Part shown: positions 1 to 54,143 of the stretch, piece after piece | How the letters are laid out: every line of letters begins with the position of its first letter | How positions within the stretch are numbered: position 1 is the stretch's first letter | Source: Verticillium longisporum | Taxonomy: Eukaryota; Ascomycota; Sordariomycetes; Glomerellales; Plectosphaerellaceae | Assembly (NCBI GenBank): GCA_019188255.1 | Contig: JAETXT010000001.1 | Coordinates: 1,116,001 to 1,180,000, forward strand | Length of the DNA stretch: 64,000 nt | Reading direction: 5' to 3' | The notes under the pieces: generated by a model | Told to the model about the DNA's origin: nothing | The model's input: the letters and a program-made list of their open reading frames with translations, nothing else | The model's database searches: none | Made by a program: the position numbers and the translations under genes

Positions 1-1116
1 GGCCGCGCTCGCCGAGGGATTTGATCTCGCCGTAGACGACCGATACGTTGGGCTTGGTAAGGGACTCGAGATAGTCTACGCCTGGTGTCAGACGACGGCA
101 CCCGACGCTCCAGTCTGGAATGAGCTTTTCCTCGAGGTAGGCGTCGCCGAGCTTGTCCTTCATCTGCTGGGTCATGTAAGGGTGGGAGTCGCGGTTGCTG
201 CGGTTGTTCTTGCGGAAGATGCCGAATTGACCGTTGAGGCCGGATTCAATGTTCTTGCGGTACTCAAGCAGTGCGGCGGGGTTCTCCACAAACTCACGCT
301 TCTCTTCTTCCGAGAAGCGATGCTGTTCGAGGCCTTGAACTGGAGAGACCCAGGTGGGCTCACGGATGAATGTCGTGACCTTTTTGCATTGGTCCCGGAT
401 GGCGGGGAGGACCTGAATTCCAGACGAGCCGTTGCCGATGAGACCAACATGCTTTCCCTCCAGGCTCACGGATTCATCCCAGTTAGCGGTATGGAGGAGA
501 ACGCCTCTGTACTTGTCGAGACCAGGGATGGCAGGCCACTTCCAGTTGTTAAGGATGCCGCCAGCATTGATGAGAACATCACAGTGATCCTCGACGATGG
601 CACCTGTCGCAAGGTCCTTGATCTTCACGTCATAACCGCCGTCCTGGTGGTTCCAAGACGACTCGACAACCTGGTGCTGCAGCTTGACGTACTGGTAGAG
701 GGCGTATTTCCTCGTAAAGCCTTCGAAGTATGCGAAGATCTCTTTCGCTGGCGGATACACAGCGGACCAGTCAAGCTTGGGTTCGAAGCTCCATGTGTAG
801 TTGTGAGAGGGCACATCGCAGGCACAACTGATTCTGTCAGTCATTTTCTCTAGACGGTTCGGGTTGGAAGATGGAATGTGTACCCAGGATACTTGTTCTC
901 CCACCAAGTGCCCGATACCGCTTCGTTCTTTTCGTAGACGGCAAGCGAGAAATTTTGAAAGTGTTTCTGCATTTTGTAGGCCACAAGAAGACCCGAGGCT
1001 CCGGCACCAACGCAGATGACTCGGATGTGCTTTTCGGAGTGGATGGGCCCGTCGAGCCTCCTTGAGGCATCACGATCACCGGCGTGCATGGTCTTTGGCA
1101 ACAGTAGGTCGGCCAT
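1..1116 (-). CDS. Baeyer-Villiger / flavin monooxygenase, 3' end outside window
   Basis: FAD- and NADPH-dependent monooxygenase that would insert oxygen next to a ketone. The start at 1116 gives MADLLLPK; an in-frame ATG at 1170 is possible. Exon 1 is 1116-884, a 56 bp intron spans 883-828, and exon 2 runs 827-1 open to the edge. The first Rossmann motif VGAGASG is followed by GTWWENKYPG; the intron splits the YPG glycine codon and CACDVPSHNY follows. YRGVLLHTANWD fits the BVMO fingerprint FxGxxxHxxxW with Y for F, and LIGNGSSG is the second dinucleotide motif. No stop or frame break is seen in the visible part. It resembles the second BVMO at 45754-47851. Substrate unknown; the C-terminus (and any peroxisomal signal) is missing. 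Confidence 0.9.
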
Positions 1117-2696
1117 TTTAGATATAAAACGTGATCGAGGAACGGGGGCGAGTGTCGAATGCAGATGCACTTGGGTATAATGGAGTTGACCGTCGAATGG
1201 CAGGACGGCCCTTGACTGTCAAAAAAACAGATAATGGAGAGAAGGCGGGACACGAAACCGCGACACAAGAAGATCTTCAGGATAGAGGGTATTATAACAG
1301 CACACAGGAGGGCATGAAACAGGTCAGTCGAGCGTAGGTGGCATGCCCAGCAGCTGGCGTCATGACATGCACATTGTGGCCCTGGCCCCTGTCAGTTGGC
1401 TCTCTCAAGCTGCGTGGCCGGCTATCGAATATCGAGGTGCGGCACACCAACCTCCCTGTGGGAGCGCTGTGCGACAGACAGCCGATGATTGTCGGTCCGT
1501 GGTGTGGCATGACCGGGGTTTAGGGGCGGTAGTTTCTTGCATCTAGGGAAGCAAGCTCAGAGAGAAACACGGGAGTGGACAGCGTTTGTGGATCGGCCGA
1601 GTCATAGTGGATGTATCGCAGAAGGAAGTCTGGAGGTTCCATGACTCGTCTTTACTCGCCCGTCTGTGATCGCAGACGACAGACTCAGTCATGTTTGTTG
1701 CACGGTGGACCAGGTAGGGGTGGGCTCAACAGGGATCCCAGTCGACAGCCTTGGGGAAATCCGCCTGTCTTGCTTGCCATGTTCACAGCTTGCGGCGGGC
1801 CACTCCATCCCACGAGACCGGTAGCCCGGCTGAACGGGCCAGGTTCGCTTCCCTAGCTTTGTAGCCTGTGTTGGTGCAGGGCCAAGGGCTGGCCAGCCGT
1901 TTCTCCAAGCGACATGGCGTGACGGCTGCTTGCTGTCCTCGTTGAAAAACGTCCGAGGGGTTGTCCGAGGGGTCAAGGTACCGAGCCTGGAGTGGAGCTA
2001 AATCATTGAGAGGGGTGTCTCTTCGCCAGTCTGGGGTTGTTTGCGGGGAGGAGGAGATGGTGCCTTGGCGGGCGGTGTTGAGACGAAGACGGTCGGAAGC
2101 TTGATCGTGACCACCCTTTGGTTTGTTGATTCTGGCTCGGGAAACCTCAACCGCGGGGCGTTTCTAGAGTTGGTGGGGCTCGGAACTGTTTGCCCTTGCC
2201 AGGTGACGCTGAGGTAATCAGCCGCCAGCAGCTGGCCACAGAGCCATTTCTCAGCCTACTCATCCCCTTTTATCTATTGGTGCTATTGGTGGAGGTTAAG
2301 GGTCTGGAGAAAAAGGGGTTATTATTGGGAAGTTATTCTACAGGGCAGGAGGGTGCCTGGAACTAAGCTATAGGAGGCAACAGGGCACCAGGTGAGTGCC
2401 ACTGACCAGGTGAGTTCCATCAACATTATCAAGCTCATCTTGACCTTGCCTACCTACCAAGCCTACCTAGGTACCTCAAATATGTAGGTAGTCTGGAAGC
2501 CAATAAGCATCTTTCGATACAAATATGAGGTCTCAAGAGTGGGTCGAGGGTGATTCACGTCTAGGTGTCGACTTCGAGCAATTGAAATCAATAACAGAAG
2601 TGATTGTAGGCAACACATTTTGCATCCCGCCCAGAATCTTGCCACCATGCACCTCAAGCCAACTGCATATACAACCATATGTCACATCGCATGTAG
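1117..2696. other. Intergenic region, no gene seen
   Basis: It lies upstream of the BVMO and downstream of the ligase. ORFs on both strands are short, lack domain-like composition and do not join through plausible introns. A direct repeat of CCAGGTGAGT lies near 2389-2416, and a cluster of CCTACC / CTAGGTACC words near 2450-2475. It should hold the BVMO promoter. Confidence 0.5.
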
Positions 2697-4522
2697 CTAC
2701 AGCCTCGCCCTCTCTTGTTGGCTGGCGGCTTCAATCGCCGTCGCATCCCTCTTGGCCCACTCGCGCATTGTCTTCCGCTGGATCTTTCCGCTCGCCAGCT
2801 TGGGCACCTCCTCTACGAACACGACCCCACCAGTCAATCGCTTGTGCTTGGCCACGCGCGTCTTGATCCATTCCGCAACGTCCCCCGGCGTGACCCTGCC
2901 CTTGGAGTCCTCCTGAATGGCGACGTAGGCTCTTGGCTTCTCCTCCCCGTTGCTGGGTTCGTCAGTCCCGAGTTCACGGTCACTTGTACCTCATTCTTGG
3001 GGGATACCTACACCGTGATGCCTACCGCCGCCGCGTCTGCAATATGCTCGTTCTCGAGAAGAACGGCCTCCAGTTCAGCCGGCGCTACTTGCAGCGCATT
3101 GACCTTGATGAGTTCCTGTTTTCGTTAGCTTCATTGTTTGGAAGAAGTTGCTTTTGACAGAAGAGTCTGGCAGGAAGATGAGAATGAAAAAAAGGACAGT
3201 AGCATACCTTCTTTCGGTCGACAATCCAGAAGAACCCTTTCTTGTCGCAGACGGCAATGTCCCCCGTCTTCAGCCAGCCCTCGCTGTCGATACACTCCTT
3301 CGTCGCGGCCTCGTTCCGCCAGTAGCCTAGACAGACGTTGGGTCCTCGAACGACCATCTCCCCGGGCTGCCCGACACCGACCTCGCGCCCTCGTCGTCGA
3401 CGAGCCGCATCTCGCAGTTGGGGTCGAGTTGGCCGACGCTGCCCGTGTCGTCACGGATACCGCCCGGCACGTGCAGCGCCCCGCAGGTCACCTCGGTCAT
3501 GCCCCAGCCCTGGTTGATCTGGACGCCAAAGCGGCGCTGGCACTCGTTCTGCAGCTCGCGCGACAGCGGCGCCGCGCCGCAGAGCACGTCGCGGACGCTG
3601 CTGAGGTCGTAGCGCGCCGTCTCGCGGCGCTTCGACAGCATGACGAGGATGGGCGGCGCCACCTGCAGGCTCGTGATGCGGTAGCGGCCAATGGCGGCGA
3701 GGAAGTCCTCGTAGCGGAACTCGCGCATCACGTAGACGGGCACGCGCAGCCGGATGGCCATGAGGATGGTGTAGAGCTGGCCGTAGGCGTGGTAGAGGGG
3801 AGGAAGCCGATCCAGCGCTCGGCGGGGCGCGAGACAAAGGGGTACGGCTTATGAGCGTAGCGCATGACGATTGTCTGCTCGACGTTGGCGATGAGGTTAC
3901 GGTGGGAGACGCAGACGCCCTTTGGGAGGCCGGTCGTACCGGAGCTGTAGTTGATCGTGGCGACGGTCGTTTCAGATTCGGACGGGGTGAGATCGGGCCA
4001 GCGGTACGTCTTGACTTCGGAGGGGGTGGCGAGGAGGGCACGCCAGTCGGGAATGCCATGGCGGGTGGCCGCATCTGTGTCGGAAAACTGGAAAATGCGG
4101 TTCTTGGGCACATTGGCCTTTTCGGCGGCTGCGAGGACGTGATCGAGGTGGTCTGGGTGGGCAAGAATGACTTTGGCTGTCGTGTTATTGAGCTGGTGGA
4201 CGAGCTCAGGGATCGTATAAGCCGGGTTGGCGCCACTGAAGATGCAGCCGGCACCGACAATTCCTAGGTAGGCGACGGGAACGAAGATTTGGTTGGGAGT
4301 GCAAATCAGGACCACGTCGCCGCGCTTGACGCCGATCCTCTCAAGTCCAAACGACAGCCGCTTGACCCATTCGACGAGCTCTTTGGGAGACAGGTTGATC
4401 CTGTCATCCTTGCAGTCAAGCCACAGCGGGTCTTCTTGTGGGAGTTGGTCCTCGGGAAAGAGATATGTGAGGAGGTTTGTCTTGGGTATGTCAAGTGACG
4501 GAAAGGGTGATGTGAAAACCAT
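2697..4522 (-). CDS. 4-coumarate-CoA-ligase-like acyl-CoA synthetase, PTS1 end, two frame breaks
   Basis: Adenylate-forming ligase of the ANL superfamily that would activate a carboxylic acid to its CoA thioester. Exons are 4522-3208, 3115-3012 and 2952-2697 (introns of 92 and 59 bp). The P-loop is [32 protein letters not shown] and the C-terminal catalytic-lysine motif LASGKIQRK follow in order. The protein ends in ARL, which fits the PTS1 consensus, so peroxisomal import is likely. The frame is lost twice, each time by one missing base: near 3796-3804 (before LYHAYGQLY) and near 3381-3390 (before VGVGQPGE). With two bases added the model is 558 aa, normal for 4CL-like proteins. It is divergent from the SDR at 5044. 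Either it is a young pseudogene or, more likely, the sequence contains indel errors. Confidence 0.88.
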
Positions 4523-5043: not shown

Positions 5044-6054
5044 ATGTCCGATCTCAAGAACTTCAGCAGCGCATTTTCTCTCGAGGGCCGAACGGCTGTC
5101 GTCACCGGCGGCTCCCGCGGCCTTGGCCTGCACATGGCCACCGCCTTCCTTCTTGCTGGCTGCTCCCACGTCGTCATCACCGCCCGCAAGCTCGAAGGGG
5201 AGCAGGGCATCACGCAAGCAGTCGAGAAGCTGAACAAGCTGCCCAGAATCCGCGGAAAGGCCATTGGTCTTGCGGCGAACGTGGCCGACACCAAGGACAT
5301 TGCGCGCCTTGTGGGCGAGGTCAAGGGCATTGTTGGGAGCAAAGGCCTGAACATTTTGGTGTGCAATGCCGGCGCGGCCTGGGGTTCGAGGTTCGAGGAT
5401 GCGCCGCCGAGCAGTTCCGTCAAGATCTTGGATCTCAATGTGAGAGGCGTCTTTGAGCTAGCGCAAAAGTAAGCTATTTTCGCCTGCAAAGTCACAGACT
5501 GTGCTGATCAGTGTCCGCAGATTCCTTCCCTTGCTGCAGCAGGCTGCTTCGAGGGAAGACCCGGCACGCGTGCTCACCATAAGCTCAACAGCTGGGAGCA
5601 ACGTGCCACATGTCGGCGAGCATGGTACCATCATGTATTCCGTCTCGAAGGCGGCAGCCAACGTAAGCAGTCTGTATGCCGAACGCTCTGCTGAACAGGG
5701 GGAGACTGACCAGTTAGCACTTGGGTCGCAACTTGGCCGTCGAGCTGGGCCGACGCAACATCACCTCCAATATCATTGCGCCCGGCTTCTTCCCGTCAAA
5801 GCTCGCGTCAGGTCTCATCAGCAATCTCGGTGGCATCGACGAATTGAGCAAGGATAACCCATTGGGAAGACTGGGCGAGGCCGATGACATTGCCGGTGTT
5901 GCGGTATTTCTCTGCTCTCCAGCTGGCAAATATGTGTGAGTGCTCGACAGAATTTCGACCTATGTGCAACTTGCTGACATTATTCAGAAACGGCGTTGAG
6001 GTGGCGGTGGATGGAGGTGCCAGATTGTCGGCAGGGAGAATGTCCCGTCTCTAA
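5044..6054 (+). CDS. Short-chain dehydrogenase/reductase with PTS1 (SRL)
   Basis: Classical SDR of 283 aa that would interconvert a hydroxyl and a keto group with NAD(P)H. Four exons: 5044-5468, 5521-5662, 5718-5935 and 5988-6054 (introns of 52, 55 and 52 bp). Cofactor loop TGGSRGLG, NAG motif (VCNAGAAW), catalytic Ser in TISSTAG, catalytic pair in YSVSK, and PGFFP after the active site. The last residues are SRL, a canonical PTS1. This matches the divergent ligase, which also ends in a PTS1, and suggests that both act on the same CoA ester in the peroxisome. No frame problems. Confidence 0.92.
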
Positions 6055-6306: not shown

Positions 6307-7396
6307 TCATTCAAATGTGATGCCTTGTCGCTTTGCCACCTTGCCCTCCTCCATATCCTGCACCATCGCAGGCAACTCCTCGAGCCCCTTTCTGATCTCC
6401 ACTACCGGCATGATGCCATGCTCCTCGGTGAACTTGACAGCCTTGGCCATCCTCTGTGGAGTAGAGGTGCTGTCAGCCTTAATCTGGTAGTTCCCCAGCA
6501 GCAGATCCATGACCTTGACCTGCAGCGGCTCCTTCGACACTCCGATGATCATCAGTGTGCCCCCGAGCGCCAGGCACGACGGCGCAGACGCAAACGCCGG
6601 CGCCGCATTCGTGTACACGGCCACAGCACGAACACCTCCCCCCGTCAGCGTCTTGACGTCCTGCGCCCAGTCTACGTTTGACCGCGAATTGAAAACGGCC
6701 TCGGCGCCCTGCCTCTTCGTCTCCTCAAGGTTCGCATCGGCAACGTCAATACCCACAACACGCAGCCCCATGGCCTTGGCGTACTGCGTCGCCAGCTGCC
6801 CGAGGCCGCCGCACCCGACCACGCCGAACCAGTCGCCCGGCTGCAGGGCGCAGCTGTCGACGGAGTGAAACGCCGTGATGCCGGCGCAGAAGACGGCGCT
6901 CGCGGCGTCCATGTCCCACTTGGCCCCGTCCAGCACGACGGCGTTGCGCCGGTCGACGAGGGCGTACTCGGCGAAGAAGCCGTCGGCGACGAACCCCTGC
7001 AGGAGCTGCTTGCCCGTCTCGCAGTGGAGGTTGTGCACCTGGCAGCCGGCGCATGTGAAGCAGCAGCCGCGGATGTAGAGGAAGCCGACGGCGTCGCCGA
7101 GGGCGAACCCCTGGTTCTCGGCGGACGCGTGGAACTGCACTATGTGGCCGACGCCCTCGTGGCCGAGCGTCACGGTGTCCTGGGCGTCGCGGATGGCGAG
7201 GAGGTCGCTGTGGCAGAGAGAGGCAGAGCGGATCTTGACGAGGAATTCGTCGGGGCCGGGTTCGGGGACGGGAATCTCATTGATGACGACCTTCTTTTGG
7301 TGCTGGGTTACGTTAGTGGATGAGAACCGACGTGGAATGTGAGTGGCGTACAGGGTCCCATTGACCGGCCTTCATGGTTTTGGGAATAGATGACAT
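6307..7396 (-). CDS. Zinc-dependent alcohol dehydrogenase (MDR)
   Basis: Medium-chain alcohol dehydrogenase of 346 aa, probably cytosolic, oxidising an alcohol to an aldehyde or the reverse. Exon 1 is 7396-7352, a 49 bp intron spans 7351-7303, and exon 2 is 7302-6307. Catalytic zinc ligands lie in ASLCHSD and GHEGVGH. The structural zinc loop reads CFTCAGCQVHNLHC, with six rather than the usual seven residues before the last Cys. VVGCGGLGQLA is the NAD(P)-binding turn. It is divergent from the aldehyde dehydrogenase at 8319, an arrangement typical of consecutive steps under shared control. Confidence 0.92.
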
Positions 7397-8318: not shown

Positions 8319-9894
8319 ATGACTTCACTAGGACCTGGTCTGAAAGAGGCTTCTAAAAACCTCCCATCCTCCTTCGATTGGAGCAAAGGGAACCTTCCCA
8401 AAAAGCTCTTCATCAACAACGAGGTACATGACATCCTATCTCTTTGATCCTATCTCTTTGAAGGCGATTTCTGACACCTCAAAGTATGTCGAGTCCAAGA
8501 ACAGCAAGAAGCTGTCACTGCACAACCCTATAGACGGTTCCGCAGTCGCCGATGATGTTGCTCTCGCTGGCGAGGCAGACGTCGACGCGGCAGTGGCAGC
8601 TGCCGAAGCCGCGTTCCCAATTTGGAAGAAGACACCTCCTAACACACGCCGAGACATCATGAACAAGTTCGCAGACCTCCTCAACCAGAACAGGCTTGCC
8701 CTGGCTGAGCTGACGCGCCTGACCCTCGGAGCACCCTTCGGGTCTTTTGGCTCTTTTGAAATCAATCTCGCATGCGAAGGTTTCCGCTACTTTGCTGGCT
8801 GGACAGACAAGTTCCCTGGTGAGACGTATCCCCAGGAAGACGGCTTCATGAAGATTGTACGCAACGAGCCGCTCGGCGTCACCTGCGGCATCATCCCCTG
8901 GAACGGCCCCTTGGGTAACGTCGGCATGAAGGCGGGCCCGGCCCTGGCGACAGGCAACTGCTTCATCCTCAAGCCTTCCGAGAAGACCCCATTCGCCGCT
9001 CTAGCCCTGGGGACCCTCATCAAAGAAGCTGGCTTTCCACCTGGCGTCTTCCAAGTCATTTCTGGCGACGGCAGTACGGGCGCCCTCCTAGCGAGCCACA
9101 TGCGCGTGCGCAAGGTCAGCTTTACGGGATCTACCTCGACAGGCCGCAAGATCCAGGAGATGGCTGCCAAGAGCAATCTCAAACGCGTGACGCTCGAGCT
9201 CGGCGGTAAGAGCCCTGCCGTGGTTTTCGACGACTGCAACCTCGACAACGCCGTGTCGTGGTGCGCAAACGCCATCACGGCCAATACAGGGCAGGTCTGC
9301 TTTGCGGCAAGCCGAGTGTACGTACAGGCGGGCATCTACGATAAGTTCACCGCGGCGTACAAGGCGGCCATGGAGGAGAAGGCTCGCGGCGTCGGAGATC
9401 CCAATGATGAGGGAACTATCATTGGCCCACTGGTTGATCAGGCACAGTTTGACCGTGTTCGAGGCTTCATCGAGCGCGGGCAGCAGGGCCAGGGGACGCT
9501 GCTCGTCGGAGGCGGCCGTGTTGGTGAGAAGGGCTACTACGTACAGCCGACCGTGTTCGAGAATGTTGCACAAGACGCCGAGCTCTGTCGCGAGGAGATC
9601 TTTGGGCCTGTCGCTATACTCAACCGTTTTGAGACGGAAGAAGAGATTGTGGCCAAGGCAAACGATACCAACTTTGGTCTGATGGCCGGTGTCTTCACGC
9701 AGGACATCAACAAGGCGATGCGCGTGGCGTCTGATATTGACAGCGGCATGGTCGGCATCAATTGTGTCAGTCTTTGCTTCCTGACGGCGCCTTTCGGTGG
9801 CAGCAAGGAGAGCGGCTCTGGTCGGGAGAACGCGATCAACGCACTTCGCATGTTCACGGAGCCCAAGACCGTTATGGTGAACTTGACGTACTAG
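8319..9894 (+). CDS. NAD(P)-dependent aldehyde dehydrogenase
   Basis: Aldehyde dehydrogenase of 504 aa, the usual family length, converting an aldehyde to its acid. Exon 1 is 8319-8423 (35 codons ending FINNE), a 61 bp intron follows, and exon 2 is 8485-9894. FTGSTSTGRK is the cofactor-binding turn, the general-base Glu lies in LELGGKSP and the catalytic Cys in NTGQVCFA. EIFGPVAIL and PFGGSKESGSGRE are typical C-terminal blocks. No organelle signal is evident (it ends VNLTY). It is divergent from the ADH, and its acid product would suit the nearby CoA ligase. Confidence 0.94.
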
Positions 9895-10063
9895 CTAGCT
9901 ACATGTCTGTATTGCGGAATTTATCGGTATTCAATCAATTCAAGGCTAAAGCTAGCCGCCACGGAAAAGTGACGTGAATAGTGAGGATGAAGGCGAAGCC
10001 ACCATCACTGAAGACGAGGAAACACATGTGTTTGATAACCCATGCCTGTCCGAGAACTTCTCT

Positions 10064-13000
10064 TCATTTGAAAAGATCATCTCCATCTGAGTCAGGACCA
10101 TCAATCTGTTCAAAATCAGAGTCATCAATGTGAACCGTTTCCCCTTGTAACAGCTGCTGGTACTCATCGCTCATTTTCGCCTCTTTTCTGGATTCAAGCA
10201 AGGTCTTGATTTCCCCGAGCTCATCTTCAATAAAACAATCATTCTCCTCCTCCAACCTGTGCACAACTGATTTGAGCGGCGTCTGTCCGTTGCTGTTCGA
10301 TACTGTGACATCGGCACCTAGATCCAACAAGAACTTGACACACTCCACATATCCTCTGGTCGGATAGTGATGAAGGAGCGTCGACCCCTGATTATTGAGA
10401 GCGTTGATGTCGGCGTCCCAATGTATCGAGCCCAAAGCCATGCCACGCCGTCGTGGGTAATCCAAAAGCGCCGTTTCGAGCACGATCTTCAACATGTCGT
10501 GCTTCGCAGCAGGACTTTTCGCCTTTGAAAGTAGATAGTCCAAGTAGCCGAATTTGCTGCGCTGAATAGCGTACCATATCGGCAGTGCGATTACGCTGTC
10601 CGTAGGGGGGTGAGGATTTGCACCACTCTTCAACAGTAAACGTCGCATGCGAGATGTTCCAGCCAAACAGAGCGCTGTGCGGCCGTGCCCGTCGCAGCTT
10701 TCGATGTTGACATGCGGCTGAGTGACTAGAAGACGCACGACTCCTACCAGCTGCGATCGCGTTGCCAGCAAAAGAGCAAAGTCATATGTAGGTAGGTTAG
10801 ATGGTAGCTCATCTTGGAATGCGGAATTTGGCCAGCCTTTGCCTCTGCATTTCAGAAGTTTGACGATGAGATCCAAGTCGTCCTCGCCAGAGTTTCCTTC
10901 CAGGTGCTGTGTCGTGTTGGTGATTGCATAGCGATGAAAAGCCATGTGAGGGTGTCTTTCTATCCAGTCATCGACCTCTTGAATTGTATCTCCCACTCTG
11001 TAGCCAGGCATTCTATGGACAGTTTGGTGAACTAAATCTTTCGAGACATGACATCCGTTGACCTCAAAGCTAGGGAGTTGTGGATCGTTGTTGTATAGCC
11101 AGTTATACCGAAGACAAATGCGTGCCATGAAGCTATTGGAAAACTTGGGACTGAACGAATGCTGCCACTGCGTGGGAAGGTCGGCCGTCGGCATTTCGGT
11201 GTCCGAAGACTGGAAGAACTCCCGTACCGTCTGGTGTAAGAAATACACGCGGTCGTTGTGTGTGATGATGAAAAGTCCGGTTATCTGCCTCAAGCTTCTC
11301 TTGAACGTTTGTTCGTCCTCCATGTCCAAATTGTTGAGGTTATTGACGCCTTCGTCCAGGTTCATTGCAACATTCATTTCCGCTATCGTCAAAGGAACTG
11401 CTGCTCCCAAGACAATGGTGAAAGCCTTTCGTATGAGTGGCTGTAAGGTTTCATCAGTCCGACTTAGGATCTTTGAGTAGGCGTCATTGATGCTGCGCGG
11501 TAGATTCTCAATCGCATCTTCCAAGCCCTTGATAGTCTTTTTGAAGTGACTAGTCTCAACAAATCTGAACGTCAATGCTGCCCAAAGATATGTTGGGTTC
11601 TCGACACTCAGAAGCCTCTCCTCAAGTCGCGAGAGCAGTCTTTGGGGAATGATTCTCTGAAGTTTGGGATCGCGGACCCTGTGCTGGATCACAATCTTGA
11701 CTTCTTGCCGAATGGTGGTCGACTTCTCCTCGCCATACATGCGGATACAAGATGCCACAATCATGTTTGTGATGCTTTGGTATGGGCGAGTGGTGAAGAG
11801 CCATCGCGTCGTGGCATGAGAATGTTTCTCAACGGCGAGTAGGTGGTTGACGCTCCTGGCCAGGACTTGAAAGTCTGCCTGTCGGCATTCGTCCAGTCCG
11901 TCCAGAACAATAATGACTGGACCTGTATCCGAGTCTCTGAGGCTAGCCTCCAAGATCCTCCAGAGTATAGTCGTGTTGTTTGAAGGCTATTGCCATTCTT
12001 CGCATGCTCGTGCGCCAAGTGCCTCTTTATCAAACTGGGCTTCCGACTCAGAAGCTGATGCAGCAGAGCACACAGTGCCAGGCAGAGCCTGTCCTGATCG
12101 TCCTCCTTGAAGAAGAAGTAGCATATTGTTGCGTCATTGGCGTCTTCGAGAAGTCGTTCGTCGATGAGGTGTTTAGCTAGAACAGACTTGCCGCAGCCGG
12201 GGTCTGCTGAAACCATCAGTAGCCCATGAGCCTTCCGCAGCCAGTCCTGATATTTCTCCTCCTCAAGAAGCCACTTGCATGTTCCTGGAACTCTGTCCTC
12301 GGTGCGTTCTTTTGCGCTTTCGTATGACAGATCTTGAGAAGCGTTCTGGGGCCGCAAGACCTGGAGGTGCTCCTGTTCTTCCAGGGACAGTGCTCGTGAC
12401 TCAAGGCGCTGTAAAGTTGCGGCCATTTCACGCGTGGATTTTGTATGATTTTGGAACTCCGTAGAAATTTCCAGCATTATAGAGTTCGTGACTTCGAGGT
12501 TCGCGACAGTCTCTTCTTTCAATTGACGTAGATAATCCTCGCTGGCTGTGCGCTGGAGCGGCCGCCATCGCTCTGCGAACAGCTTTTCGGCGTCCTTCAC
12601 GCTCTGCAGCATGGTCTCCCAGCCGTCATAGTCGACAGCATCTCTGAGCTTGTTCTTCAGCTTGCGCCGATTGAATCGTAAGGCTGACCGGAGCTGAAAG
12701 GAGAGTATGGCTTTGTAGAGCGCTATGATGCTCTCTTCGGCAGCTTCGATGAGTTCTTGTGAGCATGAGCCGTGGCTTTTCTGAAGCTCTGGCTCAAGAG
12801 CAAGATAGTACTTCAGAGTTCCAGTGACGTAGATGAAACCGCTGTCGTTCATGTCTTTGGCCTTCTGGACATTTTCCAGCAGGGGGAGGACCAGTATGGT
12901 GGCAGCCCAAACAATGGAGACTTCGAAAGACGCCGTCTTGCCCAGCGCTGTGGACACCAGGTCTTTACCCCAGGCTATCATGCGAATACCCTTGTCGAAC

Positions 13001-13263
13001 ATTTCACCGACCTTGTGATCCTTGTTCCTAAGTTTGAACCTAATCTCTGCATCTTCCATCCGTTGCTTGCCGTCTTGGCACAGCTTCTGGACATCGTGGT
13101 ATGTCGGATCTTGGTCTTGAGCCAGATCTCCTGGCAATTCTTGTGGCTGATCTTGTCGCCGAGCTTCTTGAGCTACGAGTGTCTGAAATTTCAACACGAG
13201 GTCCCTTTCTTCCTCCCGAAGCTTGTCCGGGATGCAGCTCACAGGGATGAGTCTTAAGTTCAT
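10064..13263 (-). CDS. NLR-like STAND protein (NACHT_N, NACHT, ankyrin repeats), one frame break
   Basis: Fungal NOD-like receptor of the type linked to non-self recognition and programmed cell death. The start chosen is the ATG at 13263 (MNLRLIPVSC). Residues about 50-270 resemble the NACHT-NTPase N-terminal domain (IAWGKDLV, FEVSIVWAA). Walker A is SADPGCGKS and Walker B VIIVLDGLDEC. Ankyrin-like repeats follow (DGHGRTALCLAG, NNQGSTLLHH, SNGQTPLKSV), then an acidic tail. One base is missing near 11965-11990, between NGNSLQTT and the LWRILEAS frame. With it the protein is 1066 aa. The RIP island begins about 40 bp upstream of the start codon, so the native promoter appears displaced or heterochromatic. 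Confidence 0.85.
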
Positions 13264-13292
13264 CCCCCCCAATTCGGAGAAACCTCGGGGGG
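13235..13292 (-). repeat. Left copy of inverted 58 bp border motif
   Basis: Read on the minus strand it matches 31016-31073 (plus strand) at 51 of 58 positions; the inner 22 bases are identical. It contains a C6 / 16-base / G6 hairpin-like block directly before the NLR ATG and extends into the first codons. It marks the left border of the AT-rich island. Confidence 0.75.
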
Positions 13293-13299
13293 AATAGCA

Positions 13300-14532: not shown

Positions 14533-14759
14533 TATTACGACCTAGCAGCTTCCGAAGGGGGAATACTATTAGAGGGTTAGGGTTACTATTTATAGAAGCT
14601 TAGGTTATAACTCTAAGACGATATAGTATCGTAAGGCGTTACGTACTCGTTATAATAGATATAAAATAAGACTTAGATTAATCACTATTATAAGAAAGAA
14701 TATATCTATAAGTACTAAATACCTGTCCTTATATATTTATTATTCTATCCTTATCGTAT
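14533..14759 (-). repeat. E2 LTR, left part, split by E1
   Basis: It repeats the first about 227 bases of the adjacent E1 LTR (begins TATTACGACC, contains CTTCCGAAGGGGGAATAC) and stops at the E1 target site. The rest of this LTR resumes at 22176. Confidence 0.75.
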
Positions 14760-15987: not shown

Positions 15988-15989
15988 TT

Positions 15990-21690: not shown

Positions 21691-21700
21691 GTAATTAAAA

Positions 21701-31010: not shown

Positions 31011-31015
31011 CCCCC

Positions 31016-41280: not shown

Positions 41281-42638
41281 CTACTCAAAAGAGACAAATT
41301 TCTCCCCATACTGCTCAGAAAATTCCTTGTACCTGTCCAGGTAGGTCTGATGCCTATCCCTGAACCCCTGAGCCGTCTTCATCTCCTCCCGCCCAACCTG
41401 ATGTCGGTGTGCTGCGTCCGGCCCGTCCGCCACGCGCACGAAGCGCGCATACGTCCACATCTCCGGCAGCGGCGTGTGCTGCGTGAGGCCCTGGCCGCCG
41501 TAGATCTGCATGCACTCGTCGATGATGCGGGCGGCGAGCTCGGGGACGAGGATCTTGCTCTGGGCAATGGCGCGCTTGCCGGCCTTGTTGCCGAGCAGGT
41601 CCATCGTGTCGGCGGCGTTGAGGACGACGAGGCGCGCGGCGTCGAGCTCGAGGCGCATCTGGGCGACGCGCTCAATGTTGGAGTCAAAGTCGCCGATGAG
41701 GCGGCCGCGCGGCTTCTTGCGCGGGTCGATGCAGCGCACGAGGGCGAGCTCGTAGGCGCGCTCGCACTGGCCGATGAGGCGCATGCAGTGGTGGATGCGG
41801 CCGGGCCCGAGGCGGCCCTGGGCGATCTCAAAGGCGCGGCCCTCGCCGAGGATGACGTTGCCGACGGGCACGCGGACGTTGTCGTACTTGTACTCGCCGT
41901 GGCCCTCGGGGGCGTGGTCGTAGCCCATGATGGTGAGGTTGCGCACCTGCGTGATGCCGGGCGTGTCGCAGGGCACGATGAGCATGGAGTGGCGGCGCCA
42001 CTTGTCCGGGTGGTCGGGCGCCGTGCAGCCCATGAGGATGTAGAAGGAGAGCTCCTTGTTCCAGAGGCAGTTTCCGTACAGCTTGCGGCCGTTGATGACG
42101 TACTGGTCGCCGTCGCGGCGGATGGAGATGCCAATCTGAGTGGCGTCTGAAGAGGCCACGTCGGGCTCGGTCATGGAGTAGGCTGAGGAGGCCGTACCGT
42201 CGAGCAGAGGCTGAAGCCACTTGGCCTTCTGTTCGGGGAGCAGTACTTTGCGAGGAGCTCAATATTGCCCGTCTCGGGAGCGTGGCAGTTCATCGTCTGG
42301 GCGGCCCAGTAGCAGCGGCCCATGATCTCAGCGCAGCACGAGTATTCGAGATTTGTGAGACCCGGGCTCTCTTTGAAGTGGTTTGGCAGGAAAAGATTGA
42401 ATAGACCGCGTTCCTTCGCTCGCTCCCGGAGCTCATGAATCAGAGGCGGTGTCGTCCATCGCTTGCCCTCAAGCTGTGCCTTCATGACTTGTTCGCGGGG
42501 AATGCATTCGTTTTCGACCCAGTCAAAGACAGCCTGAATCTTTTCAATAGCCAGAGGTGACAGCTTGGCCTTGACCCACGGGGGGATTCGGCTGAAGGCA
42601 GGGCCCTCGAGTTTTGGTGTTGTCTGGGATGGTGACAT
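41281..42638 (-). CDS. Acyl-CoA dehydrogenase, ACAD10/11-like, one frame break
   Basis: FAD-dependent alpha,beta-dehydrogenation of an acyl-CoA. Single exon from the ATG at 42638 (MSPSQTTPK). YSMTEPDVASSDATQ is the first family signature (flavin and substrate contact). QIYGGQGLTQHTPLPEMW and RVADGPDAAHRHQVGR are the C-terminal blocks seen in the ACAD10/11 branch and in fungal homologues. The frame is lost at a C4 run (42235-42238 on the plus strand, G4) between KYCSP and EQKAKWLQP; one extra base gives 452 aa. No PTS1 (ends VSFE), so a mitochondrial, cytosolic or piggy-backed peroxisomal location is open. It fits downstream of the CoA ligase. Confidence 0.9.
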
Positions 42639-43152: not shown

Positions 43153-44456
43153 TCACGGGATGATCTTGGCCTTGCGGAACCGGTCCAGCGTCGTCCAACA
43201 CGAGGTCTTGGTATCAATCTCCTCCTTTGCAGACCCCCACATCCCATGACACTTGCTCAGGTCCATCTGTCGATCAAAGTCGAGCATGGTGATGATGAAG
43301 TAGGCAAAAGGCCCGAAACTGCGATCATTGCCCACCCTCCCACTGACCAGGCCGTATTTCTCTTCCAGCGCCTTCCAGTCGTCAAAGTGCTCCGCGAGAT
43401 ACTGGGCGGGCTGCGGCCCTGAGCCGCCCGGGGGCGGTGCCGTGCCCTTGAGGCCAAAGTACTCGCAGATGACGGGCCACTTCTCGCTCCAGGACGATGG
43501 CTGCGAGTTGTCCGTTGCGTTGTACCGCTGCTCGGCCGTCGTCTCCGGGTGCAGCGACGCGTAGATGCAGACCCTGGCCACGATGTCCTGGTTGCTCTCG
43601 TTGCTGAGGTTGCGCCACGACCGCTCCGTGCCGGGGAACGGGACCTCGGCGCCCTTGCCTTCGAGCTCGGCGTAGAGCGCCAGGTACGTGCCCACCGTCT
43701 GCGCGAGGCAGTAGATGTTGTTGTTGGGCACGAAGCCGATGATGTTGTCTGGGATCACCTCGCACCAGGTCCACGACTTGCCCTTGGCCATCTCGAAGAG
43801 CATGTCCGTCTGGTCGTAGTAGAACATCTGCGAGGCGTACGGCTCGGGGATGCGCGGCAGTGATTCTCGCAGGGGCAGGTCATTCTTAAAGGGAAAGTTC
43901 TCGTCCAGAAGGTGCACGCCGTATGCCTTGGTTCCGGTCGGCAGGACGACGAATTTGAGACTCTGGGAGAGGTTCTCGACGGCGGAGACGGCGCGCTTGA
44001 TGAGTTCCTTGTTGATCGAGCACTCTTTCGCCGGATCGGTGTCCATGATGTAGGCTACGTTTCTTGTATCAGCATGGCGCCAAACCTTGTTAGTGGATGT
44101 ATTTGATGACCCACCAAAGAAGTAGACATGGCTGATGTTGGCGATATTCTTGACTTTGGCTTTGAGGTCTGCTTCAAGCCCGTCTTGCCCTTTCGAGGTC
44201 AAGATGTCGACGCCACTGGCAATCTGGAGCTTCTCCGAATTTGGCCAGAACGCGGCATCGGGGTCCAACGGTCGATTCGTCAGGGCCGTGACCGAGGCAA
44301 AGGTGTCTTTGGACGGGTATCCCTCGAGCAGGGCATTTGTGATGGACCAGCCAGTAATGCCGCTGGCGCCTGTGGATTTTGGTTAGGACTGGCCTAGTGA
44401 GCCTGCAGCATGACAGGAAAAAACGGACCATAGATGAGTGCGTGATTCTGTGTCAT
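43153..44456 (-). CDS. PRISE-type enone reductase (progesterone-5-beta-reductase / iridoid-synthase-like)
   Basis: Atypical SDR of 394 aa that would reduce the C=C bond of an enone with NADPH. Exons are 44456-44429, 44369-44115 and 44054-43153 (introns of 59 and 60 bp; the second is a multiple of three and can be misread as coding). IYGASGITGWSI is the cofactor loop. SHVYFFAYIM spans the second splice. LPTGTKAYGVHL carries the conserved Lys, and FYYDQTDMLFE the conserved Tyr of the PRISE active site. VIPDNIIGFVPNN also fits the family. It is divergent from the second BVMO, which suggests that enone reduction and Baeyer-Villiger oxidation act on the same molecule. Confidence 0.88.
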
Positions 44457-45753: not shown

Positions 45754-47851
45754 ATGGCGCCTTCAGCAGAGTCTAGTGGTGCCGGTGTAAGTGCCCAGCC
45801 AAACGGCCACCAGAAGAATGGCCACACCAACGGCACCTCCAACGTCACAGGCACCGCCAATGGTGTCCGCGGTCACGACAGTGGAAATCTATACCAAGAC
45901 TTCGCCTACCCTCCAGTCGTCGAGGATGGGACGCCGTACAGGGTTCTGAAGCAGTATCATTCCAAACCTACAAAGTTGCGCGTGGCTTGCATCGGTGCTG
46001 GCGCCTCGGGATTATGCTTGGCATACAAGATGGAGAAGCAGATGGTCCCCGACAGCTGGGAACTGACTCTCTTCGAGAAGAACCCTCACTTCGGCGGCAC
46101 ATGGTACGAGAACACGTGAGTCTGTACACATCCCGAATATTCAGCTCGCGCTAACACCAACGCGAAAGATATCCCGGTGTTGCCTGCGACGTAGGTCCCA
46201 GACGATGACACCCCTCTACGCTCTTGCTGTCTAACGGTAACCTGCAGATCCCGTCTCATCTGTACACCTTCTCCTGGGACCCCAAGCCCGACTGGTCACA
46301 CTACTTTGCCTACGGCGACGAGATCCAGCGCTACTTTGAAGACTTTGCCGAGCGCAACGGGTCGAAGCGCTACATGAAGCTCAACACCAAGGTCGTCGAG
46401 GCCCGCTGGGACGAGCCCAAGGGCCTCTGGAACCTGACGCTCGAGGACCAGCGCACCAAGGCCTCCTGGCAGGACTGGTGCCACGTCCTCGTCAACGGCA
46501 CCGGCATCCTCAACAACTGGAAGTGGCCCGACGTCGAGGGCCTGCACGACTTTGCCGGCCCCAAAATGCATTCCGCAGCCTGGGACCACTCGGTGGATTT
46601 CGAGGGCAAGACGATCGGCGTCATCGGCACCGGTAGCACGAGCGTCCAGATTGTGCCGGCGCTGCAAAAGGTCGCAGGGACAAACCTCAAGGTCTTTATG
46701 CGCTCGTCGACGTGGATTTCGCCTCCCTTTGGAGGCGGCGTCCTCGAGACGGATCTGCGAAAAGACAAGGAGGGTGCGCAGCCGGGCAAGAGGCAGTATA
46801 CGTTTACCGAGGAGGACAAACAAAAGTTCCGCGATGACCCGGAGTATCACCTCATGTTCCGCAAGAGGATAGAGGCTGAGATCAACTCCCTCTTCGGCAT
46901 GTACCAGCGGGGCTCCGAGCTCTCGGATCAGTTCCGGCAGGTCATCAAGGACGAGATGGAGAGGCGCATCGGGCCTGGTAACGAGGAGCTGAAGAAGTTC
47001 ATCATTCCCGACTGGGCTCCCGGCTGTCGTCGCATCTCGCCTGGTGACGGGTACCTTGAGGCCCTGGTGCAGCCGAATGTGAAGCCCGTGTTTGGTGGTA
47101 TCAAGCAGATTGTGCACGAGGGCATCATCACCGCTGACGGCGAAACGCACAAGATCGACATTCTCGTGTGCGCGACTGGCTTCAACGTCGCCTTCAGACC
47201 AGCCTTCAAGCTCGTCAACGGAGCCGGCAAGACATTGAACGAGGACTGGGGCGACAGTGTCAACCTCTACATGGGTGTGTCAGCGCCACGGTTCCCCAAC
47301 TACTACACCATTGTGGTAAGTCGATGTTCTGCAACGCCTTTCGTCCTGAGACTGATGTCCGTCTAGGGCCCTGGCGCAACGTGGTCATCGGGCACGCTGC
47401 TGCCCTCCATCGAGACGACAATCGAGTACTCAATCCAAATGATGAAGAAAATTCAGCACGAGAACATCCGCTCCATCGATGTCAAGCAAGACGCCCTCGA
47501 CGACATTTACGCCCACTTTGACGAGTTCCACAAGACAACAGTCTTCAAAGAGAGCTGCAGGAGTTGGTTCAAGGACGGCAAGATCAAGAACCGCATCTAT
47601 CTGTGGCCTGGCTGCGTAAGTCCCTCGTGTCGTTCGCCCGACTGATGGTACAATCGCTAATGTAGCTCAAGACAATCCACTTCCTCAAATCGATCAAGAC
47701 TCCACGATTCGAGGACTATAATATTCGGTACCGTTACGCCAATAGGTTTGCGTTCCTCGGCGACGGCGAGATCAAGGCGAATACGACCAAGAATGTCCTT
47801 GGCTTAAGCACATATGTTCGGGATCATGATCACGACTGGAACGTTGATTGA
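45754..47851 (+). CDS. Baeyer-Villiger monooxygenase 2
   Basis: Class B flavoprotein monooxygenase of 628 aa. Five exons: 45754-46115, 46169-46190 (only 22 nt), 46248-47315, 47367-47615 and 47666-47851. A Gly/Asn-rich N-terminal leader precedes CIGAGASGLCLAYKME (FAD site) and GGTWYENTYPGVACDIPSH. FAGPKMHSAAWD matches the BVMO fingerprint FxGxxxHxxxW[P/D] exactly. GVIGTGSTSVQ is the NADPH loop, and ATGFNVAF the conserved C-terminal block. It ends WNVD. Intact, no frame problem. It is of the same family as the BVMO at the left window edge. Likely substrate: a cyclic or branched ketone, converted to a lactone or ester. Confidence 0.94.
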
Positions 47852-49968: not shown

Positions 49969-52900
49969 ATGGCCAACCATAATGACACCAAGTCTGCCTC
50001 CGAAGAGACGACTGGCGTGACCTCTCAGGAGAATGTCTCGCCTCGAAATGCCGCTCCCCGATCCAGTTCCAATAAGCAGCAGATTCGCCACAGGGCTTCA
50101 GTTGCCTGTGCATCGTGCCGCGAACGTCGAATCCGCTGCGTCGTGCCCAAGGGTGACAATGAATGTACTCAGTGCAAACGTTCTGGAACTGATTGTGTCA
50201 TTAAGAATGATGACGAAAGGCGACGGTACGCTTCTCTTGTTCTCAGGCGTCTCATTCGAGGCCATCGAGCTGACCCATCCCATGCAGTCCCATCTCGAAA
50301 GCCTACGTGTCGTCACTCTCGGAACGGATCGCCTTGCTCGAAGGTCTTCTCGAGGAGAAAGGCGTTGAACCACCGCCAGCGGCTCATCCACCCAAAACTC
50401 GACACGAAGGGCAGAGTAAATCCTCAGACGAACAGATCAAGGATGCCCACAACCAGACGCAGCCCCCCGTGCAGCCCTCAACAACCTATTCGCCTTTGCC
50501 AGAGGTGCCTTCACCCCCCGATTCAGCCAATGAGGAGTTCTCCATCCAGGAGAGTGACCAGCAGGCGGCCAGTCAAAATGGCAATTCTTCCTCGTACTCC
50601 ATCCCGCCGCCCCCCGGCGTCAAAGAAACGTCTCCTTTCCGTATGCTAGACCCAAGACAAGACGACATGGTCCATCGACTTCTCTCTACCAAAGGAAATT
50701 TGGCCTTCGATCAGCTCTCTGGACGCATCCGGTTCTTCGGCCCTACTGCCAACAGCCACGTCTACACAGACACACAAGACCATCTCGACGCCCGCGAGCC
50801 CCCTGAACAAGTTCGTCGTGCCGAGCGCATCATCCGCTCGCTCTCTTCTGAGACGCATACTTACCTGATGGACAACTTCTGGGGCTACTACAATGCGGTT
50901 CTCAACATCATCCATCAAGAGGCCTTTGAGGCCGACCGCGATGCCCAAAGCCCACGATTCTACTCAAGTTTCTTACACATTGCTATACTCGCCATGGGCT
51001 TCAGATTCGCCGACTTTGGCCGAGACGACATGCGACGCATTACCATAGGCAGCCGCGAAAGCACCCTCCATCGCGAGGCAAAGTATATGCTCGACATTGA
51101 ACTTGAGCGTCCCGGAGGTATCCCGAGCGTCCAGGCCCTCCTGCTGCTGGGTGACCTGGAGTGCGGTGTCGGTAGAGAAAACACAGGCTGGATGTATTCG
51201 GGTATGGCCAACCGATTGGCTTTCGATATTGGCCTCCATCTCGACTGCCGCGACAATGGTATCAGTGATATCGAGATAGATATCCGGCATATGGCCATGC
51301 GGGCTTGCGTCATCTACGACAAGTACTGGGCTCTTTTCCTGGGGCGACCTACGAGCATCAAGAACCAAGACATCGGCATGGATCTCCTGTCCAAACACTT
51401 TTCCCAACTCTCGTCCATGTTACAGGATGGCACATCGACACCAGACAAGAAGTCCACTGGTATTGAAATTTATGAGCAGCTCATTGAATTGATGGAGCTT
51501 GCTGGCCGTATCGTGGAGACTCGCGAAAATAATCGAGTCTCTAGCAGCCGCAACGCCAACATCTCTCCGGATCAGCAGGGCATCACTGATGCTGCGGGCG
51601 CCGACGCCGATGCCGAGGACAATGCCTACCTGCACGTCATCAATCTTGACCGCCAGCTACAGAACTGGTACCGCCGCTTGCCCGACCACTTGCAATGGAA
51701 GCCTGCCAATATCAAGACGGCACCCTACAGTTTCTTTCTTCTGCATCAGCAGTACCACGTCTCAATGATTCTCCTTCACCGTCCCTGGGCCAAGTACGGG
51801 GCATCTGGCGATGGCGCCAGCACCGGGTCCCATCCTTCACCAGAGGCTCATGCGCCCCAAACACCACACGATCGGGCAGCGCTCCCCTTCGGGGCTATCA
51901 ACACTGCTACTGACCCTCATTTACTGGGTCTGGGCATGGGTGATCCGCATTCCATGGTGGACGACAGTCGCACATCGCTCTCGCGGAGTATTTGTACTCA
52001 GCAGGCCATTCGCGTAGCTCGCATCTTCTGGCAGCACCGCCAGCGTTTCGATGGGACAAAGATCTTCGTCACAGGAATACAGCACGCGGGCACGGCTGCA
52101 ACAGCCCTCATCGCCGCCCTGGCGCACAACGCCAGCCCCACTGACCGATCGACCTATCTCGGCTACCTCGAGATTCTTGCTTGTGCCGTTCTGATATGTC
52201 CCATACCTACCACCCAGCTGCACGCATGGACACGCTGCTACAGGCCGTCCTCGCCCAATTAAGGCCGGAAGCCGAAGCTCAGCAGATGGATCCGTGGTCC
52301 GGGCCATCAATCCCCGTCCGGCGCGACTCCACTGCTCTTGCCGATGCCATCGCTCCGGCTTCCAAGCGGAGACGGCCTGCGGGCTCCCGGCGTGCCAGCG
52401 AGTTCACACGGCCACCGCCTCCATTTTTCGCCCCGGGGCCGACACAGCCTACACAGCCTACGCCTCCGCAAAGCAGCCATTCTTTCGGAGCACGCCATTA
52501 CTCCAATCAGTTGGATCCAGCCATGTATACGCTAAGCAGCACGACTGACACGTCGCATCCGGGATTCAGTCTCGATTTTTTGTCGGGCAGCGCAATCGAC
52601 AATGATGGCGATGAAACTAACAGACCTGCGGACGATTACGTCGTTGTGCCGCCACAATCGGACGCATGGTCTCTCACAGGAGTCAGCGGTGGCGATGGCG
52701 GCAACGCCATCTGGAACGCCGGGCCTGCAGGGTTGAGTGCTAGTTCTGTGCTCGGCGGCGGCGTCGCCCCGAGTATGGTCTCGCATGGCCTCTACAGTGG
52801 ATCGAGAGGTGAGACAGACGGCCTCAGAGGGGCCATGGCAAGCGTAGGAGAGAAAGGTCTTGACGATGGCAAGCCGAGAGAAGCGGGAGGGATGGACTGG

Positions 52901-53047
52901 ATGGACAGCGAGGGCGGCCTGGACGCGCTTAGCCCTGTGAGCTTGAGCGGGCTCGTGAACAGTGTCACGGCGGACAAGACGAGAGGGACTGATATTGAAA
53001 GTGGTGGACCGGCACGGAATCACGACTTGGATTTCTTCAGCTTCTGA
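49969..53047 (+). CDS. Zn2Cys6 transcription factor with fungal_trans domain, one frame break
   Basis: Nuclear regulator, 1005 aa once one missing base is allowed. Exon 1 is 49969-50225, a 62 bp intron follows, and exon 2 is 50288-53047. The zinc cluster CASCRERRIRC ... CTQCKRSGTDC has C-x2-C-x6-C-x8-C-x2-C-x6-C spacing. After the intron a short coiled coil (SSLSERIALLEGLLEEK) would mediate dimerisation. The middle homology domain includes YNAVLNIIHQEAF, LLLLGDLECG and NRLAFDIGLHLDC. The frame shifts near 52187-52193 (CAV to SDMSHTYHPA), consistent with one T lost from a T run. Its position makes it the candidate pathway regulator. Confidence 0.9.
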
Positions 53048-53282
53048 CTTCTGAGAGTGTAGAAATTTTCTCTTTTCGATCTTTCGTAGCCTTTCAGCTG
53101 GGTGTTGGTGTTTGGATTTTGCTTGTCTGAGAATGTGGAAGCAAGGCATAAGCCTGTTCAACGAAATGGTCTGCTCTCCTTGATGTCTTATCAGCGGTTC
53201 AGATTGGTCATGCAAACCAAATCATTGCAATTTCATCACATGTACTCAATTCCATGCTTGCCTCAAACCACCCCTGAGCCTC

Positions 53283-54143
53283 TCATTGTATCGTGAAGCC
53301 ACCGTCTGCAACGAGGGCCGCGCCCTGCATAGCACTGCTCATGTCCGAGGCCAGGAACGCGATGCAGTCGGCGACCTCCTCCATCTGCATGATCCGCTGC
53401 AGCGGCGTCCGGGCGATATCGTTGGCGAGGGGCGAGTCGGCGGCGGCGGACATGGCCTTTGCACGAGCGGCGTCTCGACGTAGCCGGGACAGATGGCATT
53501 GACGCGGATGCCGCGCGGGCCATACGTGTTGGCGTCGGCGCGCGTGAGGCCGAGGACGCCGTGCTTGGCCGCCGTGTAGGCCGTGTGGGCGAGGTGGTGG
53601 GCGGGGGCGACGAGGCCGTACATGGAGGCGACGTTGACGATGCGGCCACGGCCGCGGCGGGGGCCGAGGTCGTCCTGGGCGAGCATGGCGCGCAGCTCGG
53701 CGCGCTGGCAGCGCCAGACGCCGTGGAGGTCGACGTCGAGGACGCGGGCGAACTCGGCCTCGTCGAGCTCGTGCGTGGCGCGGCCGGAGCCGCCGATGCC
53801 GGCGTTGTTGACGGCGACGTCGAGGCGCCGGAAGCGGCGGACCGTCTCGGCGATGCCGCGGTCGACTTGCTCGGGCTTCTGCACGTCGAGGTCGAGGGCC
53901 AGGATCTCGAGGGCCGGGTGCTGGGCTTGCAGGGCTGCGTTCGCCTTGGCGAGGAGGGGGCCGTTGATGTCGGCCAGGGCGAGGCGCGTCATGCCGTGCT
54001 TGGCGAAGGCGAGGGCCGTGTATTGACCGATGCCTGTTGTGGTGTCAGCAATTTGAGGTCGGTCTGGCTCGACAGGAAGGGAGAAGGGGCGTACCTGATG
54101 CTGCACCGGTGATGAACGCGGCTCCCCTCAGCAGGGTGGACAT
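53283..54143 (-). CDS. Short-chain dehydrogenase/reductase 3, one frame break
   Basis: Classical SDR of about 266 aa. Exon 1 is 54143-54095, a 61 bp intron spans 54094-54034, and exon 2 is 54033-53283. TGAASGIGQYTA spans the splice. NNAGIGGSG, VNVASMYG (catalytic Ser) and YTAAK (catalytic pair) follow, then ICPGYVETPL. The frame is lost at an A3 run (plus strand TTT, 53458-53460) just after LVQ; one added base restores AMSAAADSPLAND and the normal C-terminus VADGGFTIQ. It is convergent with the regulator and divergent from the kinase. It may be the last cluster gene. Confidence 0.88.

Follow-up and report, generated by a model that had tools for sequence, protein, structure and literature searches.

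In bacteria, the carveol/dihydrocarvone and cyclohexanone routes proceed by enone reduction, Baeyer-Villiger oxidation, lactone opening, oxidation of alcohol and aldehyde, CoA ligation and β-oxidation. Baeyer-Villiger monooxygenases (BVMOs) convert ketones to lactones or esters, alcohol dehydrogenases (ADHs) and aldehyde dehydrogenases (ALDHs) convert alcohols to acids, and a CoA ligase with an acyl-CoA dehydrogenase (ACAD) leads into β-oxidation. Among fungi, Grosmannia clavigera is described as having a 30-gene cluster that responds to terpenes (PMC3680317). Its BVMOs CMQ_6956 and CMQ_7007 are given a peroxisomal location (PMC8120277), and Table 3 of PMC4368105, on changes in transcripts, gives its acyl-CoA ligase CMQ_6959 a value of 1107 with monoterpenes. 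Judging by their gene numbers, these three genes would lie in the 30-gene cluster. Enzymes of the PRISE family are reported to reduce the C=C bond of 1,4-enones (PMC11643720). Here we analyzed a 64-kb stretch of contig C1 of Verticillium longisporum (hereafter, the window), which carries two BVMO genes, a PRISE-type enone reductase gene, and genes for a CoA ligase and an ACAD in two arms separated by a repeat island. With some reserve, we conclude that both arms probably form one catabolic cluster, at least partly peroxisomal, with a core of BVMO1, PRISE and ACAD that is old and widespread among filamentous ascomycetes, and which was cut by a later insertion. We draw this from three observations: the flanks of the island abut on a second copy of the locus, BVMO1 is linked to PRISE and ACAD in other fungi, and three of the enzymes end in a peroxisomal signal.

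The assembly comprises 72.01 Mb in 16 contigs, and V. longisporum is described as an allodiploid plant pathogen (PMC8406199). A region of contig C9 (2.81–2.92 Mb) aligned with the window and its flanks at approximately 88–93% identity in long blocks, and was treated as the presumed homoeologous copy of the locus. Genes were predicted, without transcripts, using a purpose-written gene finder based on codon bias, splice signals, and the pattern of substitutions between C1 and C9. The predicted sets comprised 35 proteins on a 104-kb stretch of C1 (the window with 20 kb per side) and 50 proteins on a 140-kb stretch of C9. The Pfam scan covered the larger in-frame exons (30 exon pieces). Fourteen cluster genes have a counterpart on C9, and for these the ratio of nonsynonymous to synonymous substitution rates (dN/dS) between the two copies ranged from 0.03 (permease) to 0.20 (PRISE). 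With the neighboring NLR-like gene included, the range is 0.03–0.24, and these are therefore real genes under constraint. Some models are unequal in length between C1 and C9. The models of the P450, the ALDH, the Pth11-like protein and the kinase contain 1-base length differences, and such differences also touch an exon boundary of the ligase. The C9 copy of the left arm was found by direct alignment. A DNA similarity search for a second copy of this arm, in which 38 of 154 candidates were scored, returned short repeats only and missed the C9 copy, so such a search does not show absence. A short dispersed repeat with many genomic copies (74–89% identity among the matches listed) lies at 2269–2434 of the window.

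The repeat island (13228–31080; no strand assigned) is marked by repeat-induced point mutation (RIP) and is absent from the matching site of C9, where the sequences corresponding to window positions 13227 and 31081 abut with a 9-base overlap. It ends in 58-nt terminal inverted repeats (13235–13292 and 31016–31073) that are 90% complementary. An apparent 9-bp target duplication was observed, as AAGCTTGTC stands on both sides of the island versus a single AAGCTTATC on C9. The insertion point is approximately 94 codons into the NLR-like gene as predicted on C9. Since the flanks abut on C9, and the island carries terminal repeats and an apparent duplication, the split of the arms on C1 is secondary. 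Terminal inverted repeats with a target duplication of 9–11 bp are the hallmark of Mutator-like elements, and the island has both features. It reads as a Mutator-like or similar insertion that has since accumulated mutations and nested elements. No open reading frame of at least 150 amino acids was listed between 13311 and 27410; the island is RIP-marked, and fragments of a Mutator-like transposase were not searched for. The composite RIP index was 1.1–1.5 in the AT-rich parts of the island, −0.7 to −0.8 in the arms, and −0.2 in a nested pogo-like part. This part, identified by Pfam and alignment, is an inverted pair of DDE_1/Psq (pogo-like) copies of approximately 1.87 kb each (26764–30735; no strand assigned). 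The C1 copies show little RIP and are 99.7–99.8% identical to three copies on C9 (C9:2854328–2865683). The pogo-like elements were probably recently active. A stretch of approximately 17.9 kb on C9 (C9:2853563–2871428), which is AT-rich and RIP-marked except in its three pogo-like copies, lies near the site of the C1 island and takes the place at which C1 has a gene for an NmrA-like reductase (NmrA1). It is perhaps a second, independent insertion.

To assess linkage elsewhere, we compared tables of the best 120 homologues for each of PRISE, BVMO1 and ACAD, from which all homologue counts below were taken. Homologues of the same organism whose longest contigs match to the base were regarded as very probably lying on one contig. 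By this measure, one contig carries both PRISE and BVMO1 in 21 of 27 organisms, both PRISE and ACAD in 20 of 25 (a count that includes the pair of Fusarium decemcellulare NM208, which is on different contigs), and both BVMO1 and ACAD in 16 of 30; in 10 of the 15 organisms common to the three lists, it carries all three genes. A rough random expectation for 40-Mb genomes is 0.75 for PRISE–BVMO1, and 0.60 and 0.51 for the other two pairs. Locus tags are close in Sarocladium (7565/7566), Hymenoscyphus (12495/12496), Polytolypa (1941/1942/1944), Myotisia (3687/3688/3690), Neonectria (g9147/g9148), Neoarthrinium (11851/11852) and Verruconis (00093/00094). The core is also linked in Aspergillus, Penicillium, Elasticomyces and other genera, and we take the genera with a linked core to span Sordariomycetes, Eurotiomycetes and Dothideomycetes. 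Judged by a merged Colletotrichum gene model (P0146, 21 members) that joins the two, the CoA ligase appears to adjoin BVMO1 in that genus. Linkage conserved across species, by which we recognized a fungal catabolic cluster, was thus found for BVMO1, PRISE and ACAD.

These results bear on a first-pass annotation of the window, which had proposed two arms of one pathway split by a repeat island. The split is borne out, with the island now identified as a later insertion whose flanks abut on C9. The proposal of a single pathway holds in so far as the arms form one locus and BVMO1 is linked to PRISE and ACAD elsewhere, but is weakened by the organisms in which a contig is not shared (6 of 27 for PRISE–BVMO1 and 14 of 30 for BVMO1–ACAD). 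That annotation had also named separation of the arms in relatives as a result that would speak against it; for the three genes compared, this was mostly not the case.

The core enzymes were assigned to families using Pfam, motifs and solved structures. BVMO1 (595 aa; minus strand, 1–1116, continuing to the left as far as −727; dN/dS 0.10) and BVMO2 (628 aa; plus strand, 45754–47851, divergent from PRISE; dN/dS 0.05) both scored above the Pfam cut-off for PF00743 (FMO-like). Type I BVMOs are recognized by the motifs FxGxxxHxxxW[PD] and [AG]GxW....[FY]P[GM]...D. BVMO2 matches both exactly; in BVMO1 the first F is replaced by Y and the first A/G by S. Their nearest relatives in the PDB are cyclohexanone, steroid and phenylacetone monooxygenases and 'putative flavin-binding monooxygenases', and these structures do not fix the substrate. 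The two proteins (approximately 40% identity) gave mutual best scores among the BVMOs of the genome; others at 39% scored only somewhat lower. C1 and C9 carry a single close copy each of PRISE, ACAD, BVMO1 and BVMO2, and other matches of at least 100 residues reach at most 46% identity.

The PRISE-type enone reductase (394 aa; minus strand, 43153–44456; dN/dS 0.20) matched PF22917 with 451 bits, covering profile positions 91–394 of 394 in the scanned exon. The Lys/Tyr motif of the short-chain dehydrogenase/reductase (SDR) type serves as a criterion for PRISE, and the protein has TGTKAY at 134 and FYY at 172. Its PDB relatives are 6el3, 2v6f and 5dcy. The closest homologue is a V. longisporum protein, 95% identical to the window copy and 99.7% identical to the C9 copy. 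The C-terminus IIP is kept in 108 of the 120 homologues (P0001–P0120).

The ACAD10/11-like acyl-CoA dehydrogenase (431-aa model; minus strand, 41281–42638 and C9:2879024–2880381) was assigned by Pfam and its PDB relatives. Its nearest solved structures are 4hr3, 8v3u and 2wbi (both of ACAD11), and 8v3v (E values of 2e-77 to 8e-74), followed by the next relative at 2e-21, and homologue names include 'family member 10' and 'IBR3 like'. In the assembly, the reading frame of both copies is broken at one corresponding site near 42220. It is continuous in the database proteins P0241 and P0242, named as V. longisporum, and thus an assembly fault or a strain difference is more likely than a programmed frameshift, which we considered and set aside. 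The dS value of ACAD is the lowest in the cluster (0.07, versus 0.11–0.21 for other genes), and could result from gene conversion.

Three enzymes carry C-termini of the peroxisomal targeting signal type 1 (PTS1). Among the 35 C1 proteins, [SAC][KR][LM] ends occur only on BVMO1 (ARL), the CoA ligase (ARL) and SDR1 (SRL), and the same three genes carry PTS1-type ends on C9 (3 of 50 proteins). Import of these enzymes into the peroxisome is a prediction from their C-termini. Strict PTS1 ends were found in 42 of the 120 homologues of BVMO1, 31 of 120 for ACAD, and 0 of 120 for PRISE.

The remaining genes of the left arm were identified by Pfam, each with constraint between the copies. The AMP-binding acyl-CoA ligase (517 aa; minus strand, 2697–4522; dN/dS 0.14) is followed by SDR1 (283 aa; plus strand, 5044–6054; dN/dS 0.06), whose sole PDB match at E ≤ 1e-40 is a rhamnolipid 3-oxoacyl reductase. 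Next are a zinc ADH (346 aa; minus strand, 6307–7396; dN/dS 0.11) and an ALDH (530 bits in Pfam; plus strand, 8319–10090, with the coding end probably at 9894; dN/dS 0.05). For the ligase, zinc ADH and ALDH, no PDB match was obtained at the E-value limits applied, which were too strict, and the NCBIfam matches were all under the curated cut-offs. The NLR-like gene (NACHT_N, NPHP3_N and ankyrin domains in Pfam; minus strand, 10101–13263 and C9:2849918–2853327; dN/dS 0.24) has its 5′ end severed by the 17.8-kb island on C1 and is continuous on C9 (1108-aa model). This gene is probably outside the pathway. To the left of the window, at −5572 to −3837, there is a cytochrome P450 gene, a single 539-aa gene on C9 and two pieces on C1, with two 1-base length differences between the copies and a C1 frame that looks interrupted. 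It could supply an oxygenation step and is a putative member of the cluster.

The right arm begins with NmrA1 (305 aa; minus strand, 31727–32696), found on C1 only, whose piece 31727–32413 scored 26.9 in Pfam against a cut-off of 27. It is without a counterpart in the aligned C9 region, and its sole match in the genome is itself. The other genes of this arm have Pfam matches. They are an Aa_trans permease (513 aa; plus strand, 33941–35586; dN/dS 0.03), a second NmrA-like reductase (315 aa; minus strand, 35928–36978; dN/dS 0.12), SDR2 (304 aa; minus strand, 37908–38973; dN/dS 0.10), and a Pth11-like membrane protein (Fung_rhodopsin; 379 aa, with a C9 model of 299 aa; plus strand, 39798–41061; dN/dS 0.08). 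ACAD, PRISE and BVMO2 follow. Beyond these are a Zn2Cys6 transcription factor (plus strand, 49969–53047; dN/dS 0.08), whose model is 986 aa with an uncertain 3′ part on C1 versus 1259 aa on C9, and SDR3 (250 aa; minus strand, 53283–54143; dN/dS 0.155). SDR3 is followed by a protein kinase gene (Pfam) and then by one further gene, which we take to be MSH6. CGG-N9-CCG was considered as a regulator motif for both arms and rejected, as it occurred at chance level (16 found versus 16.2 expected). CGG-N10-CGG (4 of 10 promoters) and GGGGAAA (6 of 10) were the best of 100 triplet patterns and of all 7- and 8-mers conserved with C9, uncorrected, and no claim is made for them.

From these assignments we propose the following route. 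PRISE would saturate an α,β-unsaturated ketone, and a BVMO, with BVMO1 bearing the peroxisomal signal, would form a lactone or ester by oxygen insertion. Hydrolysis, for which no hydrolase gene was found in the set, would yield a hydroxy acid, which the zinc ADH and/or an SDR, and then the ALDH, would oxidize further. The CoA ligase, with its peroxisomal signal, would activate the acid, and ACAD with an SDR would begin β-oxidation. BVMO2 could oxidize a ketone that arises later or one in a side chain. The data show the genes, their constraint, the linkage of three of them in other fungi and the targeting signals, whereas we infer the order of steps, the cyclic enone or ketone as substrate, that the other genes belong to the cluster, and that the Zn2Cys6 protein regulates it. 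Degradation is favored over biosynthesis because of the peroxisomal signals in the left arm, the CoA ligase together with the ACAD10/11-like enzyme, and the lack of a backbone synthase in the scanned exons. Domains of polyketide synthases, non-ribosomal peptide synthetases and terpene cyclases were found in none of the 30 exon pieces.

Several observations weigh against a single catabolic cluster. The assembly shows apparent frame breaks in both copies of ACAD and in the C1 copy of P450, and the C1 and C9 copies of ALDH (C9:2848144–2849907) and of the Pth11-like gene (window 40515–40863) differ by 1- or 2-base indels within their coding models. Among the scanned exons, we found neither a lactone hydrolase nor an enoyl-CoA hydratase or thiolase. 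ACAD (ending in SFE), PRISE and BVMO2 of Verticillium are without a C-terminal peroxisomal signal, and no convincing promoter motif common to the arms was found. A contig is not shared in 6 of 27 organisms for PRISE and BVMO1, 14 of 30 for BVMO1 and ACAD, and 5 of 25 for PRISE and ACAD, some of which have short contigs. The linkage counts cover three genes of the set, BVMO1, PRISE and ACAD. In bacteria, we searched the best 80 of 593 confirmed ACAD relatives, several with short flanks, by tblastn with the cluster proteins (E value of 1e-15). A BVMO was found in 1 and PRISE in 0 of these 80 loci. A PRISE alignment, used through two patterns, found no relative in prokaryote genomes. In addition, Ophiostoma piceae is reported not to have grown on a monoterpene mixture (PMC3680317). 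The ACAD of this fungus (P0250) is 75% identical to the cluster ACAD, and the result speaks mildly against monoterpenes as the substrate.

Two alternatives explain part of the data, and we consider each unlikely. Tailoring enzymes likewise include BVMOs, SDRs and PRISE-like 'SirQ' reductases, and the set might belong to a secondary-metabolite cluster whose backbone gene is elsewhere; some homologues are indeed named after sterigmatocystin stcW and SirQ, and a P450 gene lies directly to the left. However, a backbone synthase domain was seen in 0 of the 30 exon pieces, the ACAD10/11-like enzyme and the CoA ligase point to β-oxidation, and the linkage is kept across many genera. The peroxisomal signals on BVMO1, the ligase and SDR1 argue in the same direction, although some biosynthetic pathways also use peroxisomes. 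To a similarly small degree, we credit a cluster specific to this pathogen lineage that detoxifies plant defense compounds. The host fungus is described as a plant pathogen (PMC8406199), and a role in detoxifying terpenes is ascribed to two BVMOs of G. clavigera (PMC8120277). The core is not specific to the lineage, however, being linked in Aspergillus, Penicillium, Polytolypa and Elasticomyces, and detoxification and use as a carbon source are not mutually exclusive. Two unrelated neighboring clusters, with a BVMO/CoA-ligase/ALDH set on the left and a PRISE/ACAD/BVMO2 set on the right, would fit the repeat island and NLR-like gene between the arms, the AT-rich, RIP-marked stretch between the arms on C9, the restriction of peroxisomal signals to the left arm, and the 14 of 30 organisms in which BVMO1 and ACAD are apart, but are very improbable: a contig is common to PRISE and BVMO1 in 21 of 27 fungi, against a rough expectation of about 0.75 for 40-Mb genomes, and in Sarocladium and Hymenoscyphus their tags are neighbors.

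Beyond the single cluster cut by a later insertion, a broader reading is possible but doubtful, namely that PRISE, BVMO1 and the ACAD10/11-like enzyme define an undescribed, at least partly peroxisomal ring-cleavage pathway for one common environmental cyclic enone, and that this is a main route for the use of such compounds by filamentous ascomycetes. If so, a single locus would explain the use of cyclic ketones and enones by many filamentous fungi, and a function would be assigned to the fungal PRISE ('SirQ-like') proteins. Two constrained copies of the cluster are present in this allodiploid fungus, and the conserved BVMO1–PRISE–ACAD linkage offers a simple marker for it in other genomes.

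The first-pass annotation had listed the enzymes, permease, membrane protein and regulator of the two arms, noted no polyketide synthase, non-ribosomal peptide synthetase or terpene cyclase, and preferred degradation of a ring compound by a cluster not yet described. All of the genes that it named are present, as judged by gene models, Pfam and C1/C9 constraint, and its list omitted the NLR-like gene at 10101–13263. The scan of the 30 exon pieces agrees with it on the backbone enzymes, and its preference for degradation gains from the three peroxisomal signals and the pairing of CoA ligase with ACAD10/11-like enzyme. No description of this gene set was found in the titles and abstract openings of the open-access literature searched, but the broad logic has an analogue in G. 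clavigera. The evidence for a cluster is firmer than that annotation could give, and the cluster is less unique than it held.

The G. clavigera terpene cluster is the nearest published analogue. Compared by description, it presumably includes BVMOs and a CoA ligase and appears to follow a like logic; among the best 120 homologues of PRISE, BVMO1 and ACAD, no row bears the name Grosmannia, and many rows are unnamed. The cluster PRISE has PF22917, the PDB relatives, and the TG-K-Y and FYY motifs in common with the PRISE family. Its fungal clade differs, as far as sequence indicates, in being linked to BVMO and ACAD genes. The cluster ACAD resembles ACAD10/ACAD11 and IBR3-like proteins in its best PDB relatives and database names. 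ACAD11 has 778 residues, with an N-terminal part that is a kinase, and the fused kinase acts on 4-hydroxyacyl-CoA. The 431-aa cluster model is without this N-terminal part and fused kinase domain, and matches 8v3u from residue 408 only. The bacterial carveol/dihydrocarvone and cyclohexanone pathways share the same step logic with the fungal cluster but use other reductase families, whereas the fungal set is eukaryotic, with no lactone hydrolase found, and carries peroxisomal signals.

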